Source: Actinomadura pelletieri DSM 43383 | Lineage (GTDB): Bacteria; Actinomycetota; Actinomycetes; Streptosporangiales; Streptosporangiaceae | Length of the DNA: 64,000 bases | Direction of reading: 5' to 3' | Assembly: GCF_003634705.1 (NCBI RefSeq) | Contig: NZ_RBWU01000004.1 | Span: 558,001-622,000, forward strand | Part shown: one piece after another, positions 16,454 to 22,891 of the stretch | How the letters are laid out: each line of letters starts with the position of its first letter | Position numbering within the stretch: position 1 is the stretch's first letter | Position numbers and translations under genes: made by a program | The notes under the pieces: generated by a model | Databases searched by the model: none | Told to the model about the DNA's origin: nothing | Seen by the model: only the letters and a program-made list of their open reading frames with translations

Positions 16454-17260
16454 TCAGGCGGGGGTGGTGTCGCCGGGGTGGCAGTGCAGGCAGGGCCGGT
16501 AGCCGGCGGCGAGCGCGGCGGTCAGGTCGCGGAAGCCGTGCCGGTGCCCGGGGGTGATCCGCCGCGCGTCCGCGCACGTCGGGTAGCAGACGACGCCGGT
16601 GGTGTCGCTGCCCACCAGCCGCACCCCCTGCCGCGCCAACTCGGTGATCTCCTCGACGTCGACGTCCTCGGCGCGCAGCAGCCGTTCCTTGGCGGCCGCG
16701 CCGAACACGTAGTCGCCGAGCGTCCCGTCGGAGCGGGTGACTCGGTGGCACGGGATCAGCAGCGGGACGGGGTTGCGGCCCAGCGCCGACCCCACCGCGC
16801 GGACCGCCCGCGGCCGTCCCGCCGCCCGCGCCACCCACGCGTACGGGCGGGTCTGCCCGCGCGGGATCCGCGCCGCGGCGCGCAGCACGGCGGCCTCGAA
16901 GTCGCTGAGGCCGCGCAGGTCCAGCCGCAGCCCGCCGAGCCGCCCGCCGCGCAGCGCCGGCACCAGCCCGGCGGGCGGACGGGACGCGGGCAGCAGCGGA
17001 CGCGCGAACCGGGCCCGGAACGACGCGACGAACTCCTCGTCGTCCATCCCGGCGCGCAGGTAGGCGACACCGTGGTCGGTGAACGCGACCTGCAGCCCCT
17101 CCAGCGGTCCGGCGACGTGGACGCGGCGCGCCGCGATGCGGTCCAGCAGGGACGGGGGAGCGTCGGCGGCCAACCCTGCCAGCTCACCGGCCAGCTCACC
17201 CGCCAGTTCGCCGGTGGGTCGGGGGTCGGGTGTCCCGTGGGTGGGATCGGTGTGGTTCAT
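16454..17260 (-). CDS. O6-alkylguanine-DNA alkyltransferase with C-terminal Ada Cys4 zinc domain
   Basis: 268-aa fusion for alkylation-damage repair. Residues about 45-205 form the MGMT domain, whose acceptor is Cys171 in LIPCHRV. Residues 215-262 look like the zinc domain found at the N-terminus of Ada: Cys225 and Cys229 in VVCYPTC, and Cys257 and Cys260 in GYRPCLHC, as a CxxxC...CxxC set. In E. coli Ada this domain takes methyl groups from phosphotriesters and acts as the regulatory switch. Here the domain order is reversed and there is no AraC HTH. An N-terminal GELAGELAGELAG repeat precedes the core. ATG 17260 overlaps the stop of the ECF sigma gene by 4 bp, so the two are co-translated. 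Confidence 0.88.
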   Translation of the reverse strand: MNHTDPTHGTPDPRPTGELAGELAGELAGLAADAPPSLLDRIAARRVHVAGPLEGLQVAFTDHGVAYLRAGMDDEEFVASFRARFARPLLPASRPPAGLVPALRGGRLGGLRLDLRGLSDFEAAVLRAAARIPRGQTRPYAWVARAAGRPRAVRAVGSALGRNPVPLLIPCHRVTRSDGTLGDYVFGAAAKERLLRAEDVDVEEITELARQGVRLVGSDTTGVVCYPTCADARRITPGHRHGFRDLTAALAAGYRPCLHCHPGDTTPA

Positions 17261-17952
17261 CGGTTACCCCCTCGCTGGTCGAAACGCCCCGAACCTGAAT
17301 CAGAATCCGGTTCGGTTTCGGGATGTGGGTCGGGTGGTGTGGTCTGTTCAGTGCGGAGGGCCCGTAGTCGTGCCAGGCCCCGGGAGATGTGCGACTTGAC
17401 GGTGCCCTCCGGCAGGCCCAGCACCACGGCGATCTCCGCGACGGGCAGGTCGGTGACGTGGCGGAGCACCACCGCGGCGCGCTGGGCGTGGGGGAGTTCG
17501 GCGAGCAGCCCGGCCAGTTCCCGGCCCGTCTCGTGGCGGGCGGCGGTGTCCTCCACGCCCTCACCCTGGTCCGGCGGGTCCGGGGCGTCCTCCAACGGGC
17601 CGCCGGGCGGTGGGCGCCGCGCCGCCGTCCGCAGGCTGTTGCGCCACACGTTCGTCAGGATCGTCAGCAGCCACGCCCTGGGCCGCAGCCCCGCGATCCG
17701 CTCCGGCCCGTACCCGCACAACGCCCGGTAGGCGCGCAGGAACGCCTCGGCGGACAGGTCCTCGGCCTCGGCCCACCGCCCGCACAGCCGCAGCGCCGTG
17801 GAGAACACCGCGCCCCGGTACGCCTCGTACAGGGCCTCGAACCCGATGTCCAGGTCACGCGCCAACGCCGCGGCGACCCGGGCGCCGGCGGGGTCGGTGC
17901 CCCGGTCGGCTCCGGGCGGGGCGTGGTCGAGAGCTTCGTCCGTAACCGTCAC
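17257..17952 (-). CDS. ECF-type RNA polymerase sigma factor
   Basis: 231-aa sigma-70 family ECF factor. Region 2 is at about 35-105 (FEALYEAYRGAVFSTALRL, then AEDLSAEAFLRAYRAL), and region 4 at about 145-200 (HAQRAAVVLRHVTDLPVAEI, GLPEGTVKSHISRGLARL). The C-terminus is an acidic, Ser/Asp/Gly-rich tail after region 4. GTG/ATG usage supports the start at 17952 in a poor ribosome context. No anti-sigma gene is adjacent; instead the alkyltransferase-Ada fusion follows with a 4-bp overlap. Confidence 0.93.
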   Translation of the reverse strand: MTVTDEALDHAPPGADRGTDPAGARVAAALARDLDIGFEALYEAYRGAVFSTALRLCGRWAEAEDLSAEAFLRAYRALCGYGPERIAGLRPRAWLLTILTNVWRNSLRTAARRPPPGGPLEDAPDPPDQGEGVEDTAARHETGRELAGLLAELPHAQRAAVVLRHVTDLPVAEIAVVLGLPEGTVKSHISRGLARLRALRTEQTTPPDPHPETEPDSDSGSGRFDQRGGNR

Positions 17953-18020
17953 ATCCGTTCAACACCGCCGCCACCGGCCGGGTTGCGGCCCCGGCACCCG
18001 GGCGGGCGGGTTCGGGCGGG

Positions 18021-18686
18021 TCAGCCGAGCCATCCGGGACGGATCATGCCCGTCTCGTAGGCCAACACCACCAGCTGCGCCCGGTCCCGCGCCCCGAGCT
18101 TGGCGAGGATCCGGCTGACGTGGGTCTTGGCGGTGGCGGGCGACAGCACCAGCCGCCCGGCGATCTCCTCGTTGGACAGGCCCGCCGCGACCAGCTCCAG
18201 CACCTCCCGCTCCCGGTCGGTGAGCACGTTCAGCTCCGCGGTCGGCGGCGGCGCCGTGATCCGCGACGCGAAGTCGGCGATGAGCCGCCGCGTCACCGTC
18301 GGCGCCAGCAGCGCGTCGCCGCGCGCCACCACCCGCACCCCGTGGATCAGTTCGGGCGGCTCGGTGTCCTTCACCAGGAACCCGCTGGCCCCCGCCTTGA
18401 TCGCCCCGTACACGTAGTCGTCCAGGTCGAACGTCGTCAAGATCACGACTCGGACGGCGCCGAGCCGCGGGTCGCCCATGATGCGGCGGGTGGCCTCCAG
18501 CCCGTCCAGCACGGGCATGCGGATGTCCATCAGCACCACGTCGGGCAGCAGTTCGGTCGCCTGCCGCACCGCCTGTTCCCCGTCTCCGGCCTCGGCGACG
18601 ATCTCGATGTCGTCCTCGCCCTCCAGGATCGACCGGAACCCCGCCCGCACCAACGTCTGGTCGTCGGCCAGCGACACTCGGATCAC
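18021..18686 (-). CDS. NarL/LuxR-family response regulator
   Basis: 221-aa response regulator. The receiver domain (1-120) has the acidic pair ADD at residues 7-9, phosphoacceptor Asp54 in VLMDIRMP and the LVKD lysine. The C-terminal LuxR HTH is LTDREREVLELVAAGLSNEE onward. The GTG start at 18686 overlaps the sensor kinase stop (GTGA), so the pair is coupled. Likely binds DNA as a dimer when phosphorylated by the kinase encoded just upstream; target genes unknown. Confidence 0.95.
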   Translation of the reverse strand: MIRVSLADDQTLVRAGFRSILEGEDDIEIVAEAGDGEQAVRQATELLPDVVLMDIRMPVLDGLEATRRIMGDPRLGAVRVVILTTFDLDDYVYGAIKAGASGFLVKDTEPPELIHGVRVVARGDALLAPTVTRRLIADFASRITAPPPTAELNVLTDREREVLELVAAGLSNEEIAGRLVLSPATAKTHVSRILAKLGARDRAQLVVLAYETGMIRPGWLG

Positions 18687-20170
18687 GCGTCTTCCTCCAT
18701 CGGCTCCCGCTCCTCGTCCAGACCGCCCAACGGCAGCCACGCCCATACCCGGAACCCGCCCGCCGGGCCCGGCCCCGCCGTCAGCCGCCCGCCGACGGAC
18801 GCGGCGCGCTCACGCATGCCGCGCAGCCCGTTCCCGTCCGTCCCACCGGTGAACCCGGCCCCCGCGGCGGTGGGCGCGTCGGGTCCGGGGCCGTCGTCGT
18901 CGACCTGCACGATCACCGCGTCCGGCCGCCGCCGCACCTCCACCGTCACCGTCGCGGCACCCGAATGCCGCACGGCGTTGGTCAGCGCCTCCTGCACGAT
19001 CCGGTATCCGGCGAGTCCCACCGGCGCGGGCACGTCCGCCAACGCCGCCGTTGCCGTGCCGGGCCCGGGGGCGCCCTCCGCCTCATTGTCGGGGGACGGT
19101 TCGGTGGGGGGTGCGGCGAGGTCTCCGGCGCGGCGCACGGTCAGGCCCGCCGCGGCGGTCTGCGCCAGCAGTTCGTCCACCCGCGCCAGCGACGGCTGCG
19201 GCGCGACCGGCCCCGCACCGTCCTGACCTGCACCGTCCTGACCGGCCCAAGCTTGACCGGCACCGTCCTGGCCGTCCCCGGCGGCGTCGTCGACCTGCCG
19301 CAGCACACCGAGCACCCCGCGCAGTTCCCGCAACGTGTCCTTGGACGCCGCCTTGATCGCCTCCAACGCCTCGTAGGCGCGGCCCGGATCGTCCCGGCGG
19401 TGCAGCGCCGCCCCCGCCTGCACGTTGATCAGCGAGATCTGGTGGGCCAGCACGTCGTGCAGCTCCCGCGCGATCCGCAGCCGCTCGGCGATCGCGCGGC
19501 GCCGTGCCTCCTCCTCCCGGCTCCGCTCGGCCTCCGCGGCGCGCCGCTCGGCCGCCTCGGCCTGCAGATGGCGGCTGCGCACGTACTGCCCGAGCGCCAC
19601 CGCCAGCAGCAGCGCCAGCGACAGCGTCGCCACGCTCCGGGCGTCCACGACCGCTTCCGGGTCGCCGCCGCCGTCACCGTCACCGCCCACCCATGCCGCC
19701 AGCAGGAACCCGGCGTTGGCGACGATCACCGCGCCGAGGGACACCGCCAGCCCGCACTCCACGGCCGCGGTGAACAACGCCACCCACAGCACCAGCGCGA
19801 TCGGCCCGTCCGGATACCCCAGCGGGTAGTACAGCGGCGGCGCCGCCACCCCCACCACCAGGACCGGCACCGGATACCGGCGCCGCACCGCCAGCGCCAG
19901 CGTCGCCACCACGATCACCGCGACCCCGCCCGGCCACAGCGCCCGATCCTCGGGCCGTTCGGCCTGTGCGCTCATCACCAGCGTGAACACGCACGCCACC
20001 ACCGCGAAAGCGGTGTCGGCGGCCTGGCCCCACCCCGGCGACCGCGCCGGACGCGCCGCCGCACGCACGGCCCGGAGCGCACGCGGAAGGACGCGCCGCT
20101 CCCGAGCCGGGGGACCCGGGGGAGCCGGTGGGGTCGGGGGAGTCACGGTCACGCGCCAACCGTAGTTCAC
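18683..20170 (-). CDS. NarL-type sensor histidine kinase (HisKA_3)
   Basis: 495-aa sensor kinase with about five to six TM helices at 50-205, a short coiled stretch of AAEAER type, the HisKA_3 dimerisation box ELHDVLAHQISLINVQAG with phospho-His near 238, and an HATPase_c domain (VQEALTNAVRHSG, then GNGLRGMRER). Between dimerisation and ATPase parts is a GQDGAGQ-type low-complexity repeat (about 300-325). ATG 20170 is used; a GTG 18 bp later is possible. No large extracytoplasmic sensor, so it probably senses a membrane or cell-wall signal. Divergent from a second two-component system. Confidence 0.93.
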   Translation of the reverse strand: MNYGWRVTVTPPTPPAPPGPPARERRVLPRALRAVRAAARPARSPGWGQAADTAFAVVACVFTLVMSAQAERPEDRALWPGGVAVIVVATLALAVRRRYPVPVLVVGVAAPPLYYPLGYPDGPIALVLWVALFTAAVECGLAVSLGAVIVANAGFLLAAWVGGDGDGGGDPEAVVDARSVATLSLALLLAVALGQYVRSRHLQAEAAERRAAEAERSREEEARRRAIAERLRIARELHDVLAHQISLINVQAGAALHRRDDPGRAYEALEAIKAASKDTLRELRGVLGVLRQVDDAAGDGQDGAGQAWAGQDGAGQDGAGPVAPQPSLARVDELLAQTAAAGLTVRRAGDLAAPPTEPSPDNEAEGAPGPGTATAALADVPAPVGLAGYRIVQEALTNAVRHSGAATVTVEVRRRPDAVIVQVDDDGPGPDAPTAAGAGFTGGTDGNGLRGMRERAASVGGRLTAGPGPAGGFRVWAWLPLGGLDEEREPMEEDA

Positions 20171-20267: not shown

Positions 20268-22220
20268 GTGGAGCGCGTGAAGGACCCGGCGACCACCGTC
20301 CACGACCTCGCCAACGCCTGCGCCCCTGACCCGATCGACGACCCGGCCCGTCCCGACGGCCGCGCCGAGGTGGGCCGATCCGCCGGGGCCGACGGCCCCG
20401 GCGCGCGTACCGCGCTGCCCGCCAGGCTGCGGGACGCGTCGCGCGCGATGCGCCGTGCCGTTCACCGGTCGACACGGTCCGCGCTGGTCAAGGACCTCGT
20501 GCTGTACGTGGTCGTGGCGTTCCCCGTCGCCGCCGGGCTCCTGCCGCCCACCGACCCCGCCCCGTCGAGCTGGGCGCCCCAGGCCGCCGGGCTCGTCGCC
20601 CTCGCCGCCGCCATCGCCGTGTGCCGCGCCTGGCCCACGGCCGCGCTGCTCACCGCCGTCTCGCTGACCGCCGTCCACGGCAACTTCCTGTTCGCCATGC
20701 CCGTCCTGTCCTACCTGACGGGACGGCGCACCCCCCGCGCGCAGCCGCCGCTGTGGACGTTCACCACCGTCCTGGTCGGCGGCGCCGCCCTGGCGACGAT
20801 CCGTGGCCTGGACGTCACCGCCTGGTTCCCCTTCACCATCTGGCTGGTGCTGCTCGGCGTCATGCCCTGGCTCGTGGGCCGCTACTGGCGCCAGTACCAG
20901 GAGCTCCTGCGCGCCGGCTGGGAACGCGCCGAACGCCTCGAACACGAACAGCGCATCACCGCCGAACGCGAACGGCTCCGCGAACGCGCCCGCATCGCCC
21001 AGGACATGCACGACTCCCTCGGCCACGAACTCGCCCTGATCGCCGTCCGCGCCGGAGCCCTCCAGGTCGCCCCCGGCCTCGACGCCCCCTACCGCGACGC
21101 CGCCGCGCAGCTCCGCGCGGGCGCCGCCGAGGCCACCGAACAGCTCCGGGAGATCATCGGAGTCCTCCGCGACGACACCACCCCGGCCGGTTCCACGGAC
21201 CCGGCCGCGCCGGTGCGGCCGTTCCGCGAAAGCATCCCCGACCTCGTCGAACGCGCCCACGCGTCCGGCGTCCCCGTCCGCCTGGTCACCGACCCCGATT
21301 CCCACGCCCCGCCCGCCGACCTGCCGCCGATGGTCGCGATCGCCGCCCACCGCGTCGTGCAGGAGGCCGTCACCAACGCCGCCAAACACGCCCCCGGCGC
21401 CGCCGTCACCGTGCACCTCACCCACCGCGAACACGACCCCGACGGCGATGGCCGTGGCCGTGGCGGTGGCCGTGGCGGTGGGGGGACGGTCGGAGGTGGG
21501 ACGGTCGTGGTCACGGTCACCAACGACCCGCCACCGGGCGGGCGGCCGCTGCTGCCGTCCGGCGGGCACGGCCTCACCGGCCTCACCGAACGGGTCCGCC
21601 TTCTCGGCGGCGCCCTGCACGCCGGTCCCACCCCCGCGGGCGGCTTCACGGTCACCGCCCACCTGCCCACCGTCCCGCCCACCACCGCCCCCACCAGCGG
21701 GACCTCGCCTGGGTCCGCGACTGTGCCCGCGAGTGGGCCCGCGACCGGACCGGCGGCGGGGGAGTGGGCGTCCGAATCGGCCCGCCACCTCGCCGACGAA
21801 CGCCGCCGCGTCCGCCGTGGCCTGATCACCGCCATCGCCGTCCCCACCGGACTCATGTCCGTCATCGGCGCCATCATGGTCGGCTACTACATCTACGTCA
21901 CCCTCAACTCCGTCCTGCCGCCCGCCGACTACGCCGCGCTGCGCCTCGGCACCGCCCAGGCCACCGTCCAGACCACCCTGCCGCCCATGCAGGCCATGGG
22001 CACCCGCGAACTCCGCGAGCGCGTCCCCGAACCCGCCGGCGCCGTCTGCCGCTACTACCGGCCCGACGCCAACCTCCTCGGCATCAACCACTACTACCGG
22101 CTGTGCTTCACCGACGGTCGACTGACCAGCAAGAATTCCTACGACACCGCACAACTCAACGCACGCCAACCCGTCCACGGCAGCACCGTGGACGACTCCG
22201 ACCGGAAGGACGACGAGTGA
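20268..22220 (+). CDS. Sensor histidine kinase (HisKA_3) with extra C-terminal TM and extracytoplasmic domain
   Basis: 650-aa kinase from GTG 20268. Residues 75-215 hold the N-terminal TM block; HisKA_3 follows with phospho-His248 in QDMHDSLGHELALIAVRAG; the HATPase_c domain includes VQEAVTNAAKHAPG and GGHGLTGLTERVRLLGG. Unusually, the ATPase domain is not the end. A Thr/Pro/Ser-rich linker (about 475-510) leads to a further TM helix at about 528-550 and a 100-aa tail containing VCRYYRPDANLLGI and YRLCFTDGRLTSKNSY. That tail should lie outside the cell and looks like a small BamE/SmpA-type fold (my inference). Coupled to the response regulator by GTGA. Confidence 0.9.
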   Translation: MERVKDPATTVHDLANACAPDPIDDPARPDGRAEVGRSAGADGPGARTALPARLRDASRAMRRAVHRSTRSALVKDLVLYVVVAFPVAAGLLPPTDPAPSSWAPQAAGLVALAAAIAVCRAWPTAALLTAVSLTAVHGNFLFAMPVLSYLTGRRTPRAQPPLWTFTTVLVGGAALATIRGLDVTAWFPFTIWLVLLGVMPWLVGRYWRQYQELLRAGWERAERLEHEQRITAERERLRERARIAQDMHDSLGHELALIAVRAGALQVAPGLDAPYRDAAAQLRAGAAEATEQLREIIGVLRDDTTPAGSTDPAAPVRPFRESIPDLVERAHASGVPVRLVTDPDSHAPPADLPPMVAIAAHRVVQEAVTNAAKHAPGAAVTVHLTHREHDPDGDGRGRGGGRGGGGTVGGGTVVVTVTNDPPPGGRPLLPSGGHGLTGLTERVRLLGGALHAGPTPAGGFTVTAHLPTVPPTTAPTSGTSPGSATVPASGPATGPAAGEWASESARHLADERRRVRRGLITAIAVPTGLMSVIGAIMVGYYIYVTLNSVLPPADYAALRLGTAQATVQTTLPPMQAMGTRELRERVPEPAGAVCRYYRPDANLLGINHYYRLCFTDGRLTSKNSYDTAQLNARQPVHGSTVDDSDRKDDE

Positions 22221-22891
22221 TCCGGGCACTGCTCGCCGACGACGAGACCATGATCCGCGCCGGAGTACGCGCGATCCTGGCCGCCGACCCCGGCATCGAC
22301 GTGGTCGCCGAGGCCGCCGACGGGCACGAGGCCATCGAGCTCACCCTCCGGCACCGCCCCCAGGTCGCCCTCCTCGACATCCGCATGCCCCGACTCGACG
22401 GCCTCGCCGCCGCCGCCGAACTACGCCGCGTCGCCCCCGCCACCGCCGTCATCATGCTCACCACGTTCGGGGAGGACGAGTACATCGCCCGCGCCCTGGC
22501 CGGCGGCGCCAGCGGCTTCCTCCTCAAGTCCGGCGACCCCCACGAACTCATCGCCGGAGTCCGCGCCGTCGCCGACGGCGCGGCCTACCTGTCCCCGAAG
22601 GTCGCCCACCGCGTCATCACCGAACTCGGCGGCGGCCACCTCACCGGCGTCGCCCGCGAACGCGCCCGCCGCCGCACCGCCGGCCTCACCCCCCGCGAAC
22701 GCGACGTCCTCGCACTGCTGGGCGCGGGCCTGTCCAACGCCGAGATCGCCGCGCGTCTCCACCTCGTCGAAGGAACCGTCAAGGCCTACGTCAGCGCGAT
22801 CCTCACCCGCCTGGACGTCCGCAACCGCGTCCAGGCCGCCGTCATCGCCTACGAGGCCGGACTCGTCGACGGGATCGACGAACCCACCTGA
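22217..22891 (+). CDS. NarL/LuxR-family response regulator
   Basis: 224-aa response regulator starting at GTG 22217, overlapping the kinase stop. Receiver domain with ADDE at 7-10, phosphoacceptor Asp54 (ALLDIRMPRL) and LLKSGDP; LuxR-type HTH LTPRERDVLALLGAGLSNAE with VKAYVSAILTRLDVRNR. It forms a pair with the unusual kinase upstream. The N-terminal sequence is close to the regulator at 18021-18686, suggesting the two systems are related paralogues. Confidence 0.95.
   Translation: MIRALLADDETMIRAGVRAILAADPGIDVVAEAADGHEAIELTLRHRPQVALLDIRMPRLDGLAAAAELRRVAPATAVIMLTTFGEDEYIARALAGGASGFLLKSGDPHELIAGVRAVADGAAYLSPKVAHRVITELGGGHLTGVARERARRRTAGLTPRERDVLALLGAGLSNAEIAARLHLVEGTVKAYVSAILTRLDVRNRVQAAVIAYEAGLVDGIDEPT

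Follow-up and report, generated by a model that had tools for sequence, protein, structure and literature searches.

On the minus strand of the window, i.e. the whole 64,000-nucleotide stretch of DNA analysed here, a gene for an ECF sigma factor of 231 aa (17257..17952) is followed by a gene for a 268-aa protein that contains an MGMT domain and an Ada domain (16454..17260). The sigma gene lies upstream, and its stop codon and the start codon of the MGMT-Ada gene share a 4-bp overlap (ATGA). This is the arrangement put forward in an initial annotation of the region, and the open reading frames, the Pfam results and the span all agree with it. The sigma factor was assigned using Pfam, NCBIfam and a sigma tree. 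Region 2 (Sigma70_r2, 2.3e-15) was located at residues 41-113 and region 4 (Sigma70_r4_2, 4.9e-16) at residues 145-196, with no other domains apart from weaker HTH-family matches that overlap region 4; the match to the NCBIfam family SigE-fam_strep, at 105 bits, is under the curated cut-off of 141.55. The sigma gene had also been described as lacking an anti-sigma partner, and Pfam detected no anti-sigma domain in five proteins of the window (the sigma factor, MGMT-Ada, a response regulator, a histidine kinase and an epimerase). A histidine kinase/response regulator pair identified by Pfam lies upstream of the sigma gene (18021-20170, minus strand), and a second apparent two-component pair, recognized from ORF translations alone, is situated on the other strand (20268-22891, plus strand).

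The MGMT DNA-binding/active-site domain (PF01035, E value 1.7e-28) occupies residues 120-200 of the MGMT-Ada protein (16661..16903, minus strand), with the PCHR motif at residues 170-173. The codon of Cys171, the predicted alkyl acceptor, is found at 16748..16750 (minus strand). In an alignment of 35 MGMT sequences, Y140, R154, N163, C171, H172 and E198 are invariant; the Y, R, N, C and E of this set are presumably those of human AGT. An AlphaFold2 model based on 35 sequences (pLDDT 82) aligns over residues 42-201 with the C-terminal part of Escherichia coli Ada (1sfe) with a Z score of 17.6. Among the 78 full-length fusions considered below, PCHR is present in all 78, and the Y/R/N/C/E set with fixed spacing in 72; in the remaining six the final E falls one position later, as judged by eye. 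The protein can thus be classed as an MGMT/Ogt.

The C-terminal domain was examined in the same way. PF02805 (Ada_Zn_binding) matches residues 213-262 with 36.5 bits, against a cut-off of 23, so the expectation that the C-terminal cysteines would match the Ada profile was correct. The Cys4 domain as a whole (residues 203-264; 16469..16654, minus strand) contains C225, C229, C257 and C260 in a C-x3-C-x27-C-x2-C spacing, and residues 203-264 of the model align with the N-terminal part of E. coli Ada (1u8b_A) over 60 residues (Z 7.9). From this spacing and the alignment to N-Ada chains, Cys225 (codon 16586..16588, minus strand) takes the position of E. coli Ada Cys38, the methylphosphotriester acceptor, and we assume by homology that it has the same role; methyl acceptance is thus predicted for this domain. 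The strict Cys4 pattern was observed in 71 of the 78 fusions, and the other seven, judged by eye, retain all four cysteines but have A or S in front of the third. In all four fusions scanned with Pfam (that of the window and three further ones), the Ada domain scored over the cut-off and the MGMT domain was likewise confirmed.

The protein resembles E. coli Ada in that a PCHR-containing MGMT domain and an Ada Cys4 domain are joined in a single polypeptide, both halves matching in fold. It differs in the order of the two domains, which is reversed, as had been noted from the translation alone: the MGMT domain (120-200) precedes the Cys4 domain (213-262), whereas the latter is N-terminal in E. 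coli Ada. It differs also in lacking the AraC-type HTH between the domains, PF01035 and PF02805 being the sole Pfam matches at E values up to 1, and in being encoded alongside a dedicated sigma factor. Since it has no AraC-type HTH, MGMT-Ada should not act like E. coli Ada.

Residues 1-41 (17138..17260, minus strand) form an extension in front of the MGMT fold, which is a candidate site of contact with the sigma factor. Two helices are predicted in this region (16-29 and 36-42) with moderate confidence in the AlphaFold2 model, and almost no row of the structure-match table covers residues 1-41. The sigma-linked MGMT proteins of the fusion clade (clade A, see below) have 149-199 residues before PCHR (median 160, n=56) and those of a second clade (clade B) 155-196 (n=24), as compared with approximately 135 in Ogt. 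Against an extension specific to sigma-linked proteins, one MGMT protein for which no sigma gene was found (L223) also has a long N-terminus; the starts of the other unlinked MGMT proteins are unsure.

Conservation of the gene pair was assessed in three samples, namely 150 genomes of the order (E values up to 1e-20), a species-genome scan that reaches close relatives only, and 396 genomes of the phylum (E values up to 1e-30). Matches were obtained in 40 genomes, at 35 loci and in 61 genomes, respectively, and the best named matches in the species-genome scan were from Actinomadura, with up to 90% identity. These yielded 78 full-length reversed fusions (18, 33 and 27 from the three samples, that of the window included), which represent 77 distinct loci as L004 and L040 are the same contig. 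Two further loci were set apart from the 78, one in which the gene is cut by the contig start (L021) and one in which the MGMT gene is interrupted and the sigma gene does not adjoin it (L026).

It is apparent that the sigma gene is directly upstream, on the same strand, in all 78 fusion loci across the Actinomycetota. The 4-bp overlap is present in 63 of them and the genes of the remainder lie within about 30 bp of each other. The survey of co-occurrence suggested in the initial annotation thus gave a clear result: the pairing is not due to chance. The pair is kept in other classes, well beyond Actinomadura, and no other gene consistently adjoins it, either in flanks of 1.5-4 kb or among the downstream ORFs. 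The upstream two-component system was considered as a part of the module and rejected. Histidine kinase and response regulator genes are found upstream of the pair at most Actinomadura loci, but matches to the kinase, the response regulator and the epimerase on the strand of the pair were confined to that genus (flanks of 1.5-4 kb); at one locus from outside Actinomadura (L076), a response regulator gene lies near the pair but on the opposite strand.

The Ada domain is not a constant part of the pair. At five loci of the fusion clade (L022-L025 and L066), the sigma gene is accompanied by an MGMT gene to which no Ada domain is fused. A tree of sigma factors with 126 rows was constructed by a quick method with SH-aLRT support only; it comprised the sigma factors of 75 fusions, the five Ada-less members, 24 other MGMT-linked sigma factors and 22 other sigma factors of the window's genome, and the fragments L016 and L035 were left out as too short. 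The Ada-less rows fall at two places within the fusion clade (clade A, support 89). This is explained most simply by at least two losses of the Ada domain inside the sigma clade, with the sigma factor and MGMT staying together. A separate clade B (support 98) is formed by the 24 sigma factors whose genes adjoin an MGMT gene lacking the Ada fusion. MGMT matches outside the fusion clade had been obtained at 39 loci, from which these 24 were drawn; no adjacent sigma gene was found at the other 15, one of which is cut by the contig end.

Detached Ada domains were also sought. None was found beside the Ada-less pairs L022-L025, and L066 has a weak match further downstream (25.7 bits). Among the 24 clade B loci, detached matches were observed at L032 (20.2 bits) and L228 (18.9 bits), the former being a separate gene of 127 aa downstream of the pair. 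These sequence comparisons indicate that the Ada domain is optional and dispensable for the sigma/MGMT partnership.

The search for a shared -35/-10 motif that had been recommended for the locus was also productive. In the window, a predicted -10 element, GGTGTT, is located at 17961..17966 and a predicted -35 element, GCAACC, at 17981..17986, 14 nt from the -10 (both minus strand; site G000:C4:575961-575986). The GTG start codon of the sigma gene is 8 nt downstream of the predicted -10, so that the transcript would be near-leaderless. The consensus directly upstream of the sigma genes is GCAAC[C/G]-N14-GGTGTT (i.e. GCAAC-N15-GGTGTT), typically 8-9 nt before the start codon. With a tolerance of two substitutions and spacers from 12 to 18, 68 of 83 pairs had a promoter-like match before the sigma gene as against 7.5% of shuffles, a count in which some matches have two substitutions or lie off the start, and in which L034 and L035 have no upstream DNA, the match scored for L034 being an artefact. 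The element is also present in front of Ada-less pairs. At three of these (L023-L025) it is visible upstream with a GGGGTT -10 and a spacing of 13-14, the segments used for the count probably having been cut too early. The clade B sigma genes apparently have a different promoter, approximately TCTCACA...CGTCTAC shortly before the sigma start, which was noted by eye in several of the 24 (L227, L228, L245 and L252).

The exact element was counted genome-wide. It occurs 48 times in 15 pair-bearing genomes versus eight occurrences of the reversed pattern, and 97 times in 23 further pair-bearing genomes versus ten; in 16 genomes without a detected fusion the figures are 16 and four. A search of 15 genomes from other classes for the exact TG[AC]AAC form located only 11 sites, six of which are the sigma gene's own. 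The window's genome contains exact sites before the sigma gene, before a standalone Ogt gene (C7:387079-387104) and at one position with no clear gene. Of the 97 sites mentioned above, 63 were read and 30 were assigned by position to sigma or Ogt; G548:C9, G562:C1:2314680 and two sites at G559:C4 were left out. Thirteen of the 63 sites read precede no recurrent gene.

The types of gene behind the sites are those for the sigma factor, standalone Ogt, an EamA transporter, a PF09859 oxygenase, a SnoaL-like protein, an MFS protein and a short-chain dehydrogenase. In 29 pair-bearing genomes, the exact element precedes Ogt in 25, EamA in 20 and the PF09859 oxygenase in eight. For Ogt, an exact site was present in 20 members of a 23-genome set (including one at G556:C35 before the Ogt of L199) and a site with at most one mismatch in all 23, as compared with 0 of 1150 shuffles; 24 genomes had been queried, and a Pseudonocardia genome (G566) lacking a match to this Ogt was left out. 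A separate group of six pair-bearing genomes gave an exact Ogt site in five, among which the site of G081 is 431 bp from Ogt and that of G113 may fall within the final part of the gene upstream; G051 has the pair and no Ogt site. EamA sites were found in 16 of the 23 and four of the six genomes, and PF09859 sites in eight of the 23 and none of the six. The PF09859 family is described in Pfam as acting on damaged DNA. Two of the eight oxygenases and two SnoaL-like proteins were examined with Pfam, the rest being assigned by eye from their N-termini; no NCBIfam family was obtained for either kind of protein, and comparison of the oxygenase with solved structures gave no match at E<0.1.

Genomes without a detected pair provided a comparison. 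An Ogt site was observed in one of the four that have this Ogt, and an EamA site in one of seven. Both exceptions are the same genome, G126, an assembly of 740 contigs in which no pair was detected and yet Ogt, EamA and MFS sites are present; with so fragmented an assembly, the pair may be hidden in a gap. Fisher tests of pair against site, with G126 counted, gave p values of 0.023 for Ogt and 0.013 for EamA, values that ignore kinship among genomes that are not phylogenetically independent.

One kind of target was tried and rejected as a member of the regulon. The site before a short-chain dehydrogenase gene (g1 type) is present also in five of the seven genomes of the genus in which no pair was detected. 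The element is therefore not peculiar to this sigma factor, and another sigma factor may share it there. The conserved site before this gene is of the GCAACCTA type, with the same -35/-10 letters, and was seen in Actinomadura at L108, L110, L112, L124, L150-L152, L159 and L160. Five genomes belonging to a second genus (g7; L103, L120, L129, L135 and L136) have the element 36-39 nt before a different short-chain dehydrogenase gene (product MDLQLSGR or close), possibly a lineage-specific target.

Genes next to the pair in other lineages were also identified. Of 68 loci, 44 belonging to clade A (mostly non-Actinomadura) and 24 to clade B, 60 provided an ORF downstream of the pair; as the ORFs were chosen by length, the frame of some may be incorrect. 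The Pfam families of the 60 ORFs included EamA (seven), PF09859 (two), PF13532 (two) and a second MGMT (one), and the rest had other families or none; no anti-sigma family was among the 25 of 35 families listed. PF13532 is a 2OG-Fe(II) oxygenase family, for which AlkB-like is our own label. The AlkB-like gene is next to the Ada-less pair of L066, and at L224 and L228 a PF09859 gene is next, with a 4-bp overlap. The second MGMT gene (L088:971-1495) was seen in a single distant genome, where it and the end of the MGMT-Ada gene have 4 bp in common. The evidence from operons and that from promoters appear to agree on the same kinds of gene.

That the locus represents an alkylation circuit, as was first suggested, is supported by these data, since the element of the sigma gene recurs before Ogt and PF09859 genes and, elsewhere, AlkB-like, PF09859 and second MGMT genes are found downstream of the pair. 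A role of the Ada domain as the necessary sensor was not supported, in view of its apparent loss on at least two occasions and the existence of clade B. The pairing of a sigma factor with MGMT is already known. ECF122, a group of the 2021 classification of Casas-Pastor as cited in PMC8999054, has a 6-O-methylguanine DNA methyltransferase in its conserved neighbourhood, and its mechanism is given there as 'unknown'. The present sigma factor can be likened to it by description: an ECF sigma factor without a cognate anti-sigma factor, with an MGMT gene beside it. The description of ECF122 in PMC8999054 makes no mention of a C-terminal Ada domain, a promoter or a regulon. What appears to be new here is the Ada-fused clade, its putative promoter and the predicted repair regulon, no description of which was found in the openly licensed literature.

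The best explanation of these observations, to which we would give an even chance, is that an adaptive response to DNA alkylation, driven by the sigma factor, has this pair as its core, with the MGMT protein serving both as repair enzyme and as regulator of the sigma factor. The sigma factor would transcribe its own operon from the GCAAC-N15-GGTGTT promoter and, in Actinomadura, the standalone Ogt gene as well; in some species, the PF09859 oxygenase and exporters would be added. Unalkylated MGMT protein would hold the sigma factor inactive, probably via the N-terminal helical extension, and alkyl transfer to Cys171 would change or destabilize the protein and so free the sigma factor. Cys225 of the Ada domain would be an optional second acceptor, for phosphotriesters. 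Newly made, unalkylated MGMT would then repair the damage and afterwards turn the sigma factor off again. Control of the sigma factor by MGMT is suggested by its being the sole consistent co-encoded partner, by the sigma-then-regulator gene order and by its longer N-terminus; that order is the usual layout of sigma and anti-sigma genes. The specific proposal of a repair enzyme as anti-sigma factor, in which the suicide alkylation of MGMT would free a dedicated ECF sigma factor in parallel to classical Ada and the fused Ada domain would add a phosphotriester input, is put forward tentatively, at somewhat short of an even chance. The absence from the MGMT protein of an ASD or ZAS domain recognizable by Pfam counts against such a role.

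That same absence is in keeping with a rather unlikely alternative, in which MGMT-Ada is output only: the sigma factor would be controlled by another anti-sigma factor, a two-component system or transcription, and autoregulation would merely co-produce the enzyme. Repair genes within a regulon need not be regulators, many ECF groups are without an anti-sigma factor according to PMC8999054, and a histidine kinase and response regulator are encoded upstream in most Actinomadura loci. Outside that genus, however, the two-component genes were not found on the strand of the pair (flanks of 1.5-4 kb), although the pair itself persists in other classes, and no other gene consistently adjoins it. An opposite sign of regulation, in which alkylated MGMT(-Ada) would contact the sigma factor and assist RNA polymerase at the promoter, much as the polymerase of E. 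coli is assisted by methylated Ada, seems improbable. An interaction of Ada with a sigma subunit is indicated by the title of Landini 1998 (a reference in PMC4437013), and a two-hybrid signal of Caulobacter Cada2 with RpoA under methylation damage is described in PMC10957082. Promoter DNA binding in the manner of Ada is not to be expected without an AraC HTH, however, and the conserved upstream element resembles a plain sigma promoter near the start codon.

The model of the initial annotation, in which sensing of methylphosphotriesters by the Ada domain would switch the sigma factor, is favoured by the Pfam scores in all four fusions scanned, the four cysteines kept in the fusions and the N-Ada fold match. 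It is nevertheless distinctly improbable: Ada-less members keep the sigma factor and MGMT, with the promoter element in front, clade B sigma factors pair with MGMT without fused Ada, and no HTH was found that would convert methylation into DNA binding. As the partnership persists without an Ada domain, the MGMT cysteine is the likelier switch, and the MGMT protein, with its active-site cysteine and N-terminal extension, the likelier sensor-regulator. For control by the MGMT cysteine there is a precedent in Cada2, which has no Cys4 domain and is activated by methylation of the PCHR cysteine of its MGMT domain (PMC10957082). Cada2 is a DNA-binding HTH activator, unlike the protein described here, for which the sigma factor would do the activating. 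Alkylated OGTs are reported to lose stability (PMC5751216).

The adaptive responses to alkylation known from bacteria take the form of transcription factors of the Ada type. If the present reading is true, a sigma factor that commands a repair regulon would provide the Actinomycetota with a second logic for this task. A pairing of the ECF122 type also gains a candidate promoter and a list of targets. If MGMT is the sensor, O6-benzylguanine, which alkylates MGMT without DNA damage, should induce the regulon.

The genome that contains the window also encodes a canonical fusion of AdaA, AraC HTH and AlkA with an adjacent MGMT gene (G000 C1, locus L145). The two loci have as a shared theme alkylation repair genes and an Ada domain, which in the L145 fusion is N-terminal; that fusion differs from MGMT-Ada in its canonical order and in having an HTH and AlkA. 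Control of this canonical ada-alkA locus by the sigma factor was considered and rejected, as no GCAAC-N15-GGTGTT element was found within one mismatch in the 5.5 kb of L145. Two alkylation systems thus coexist in the genome.
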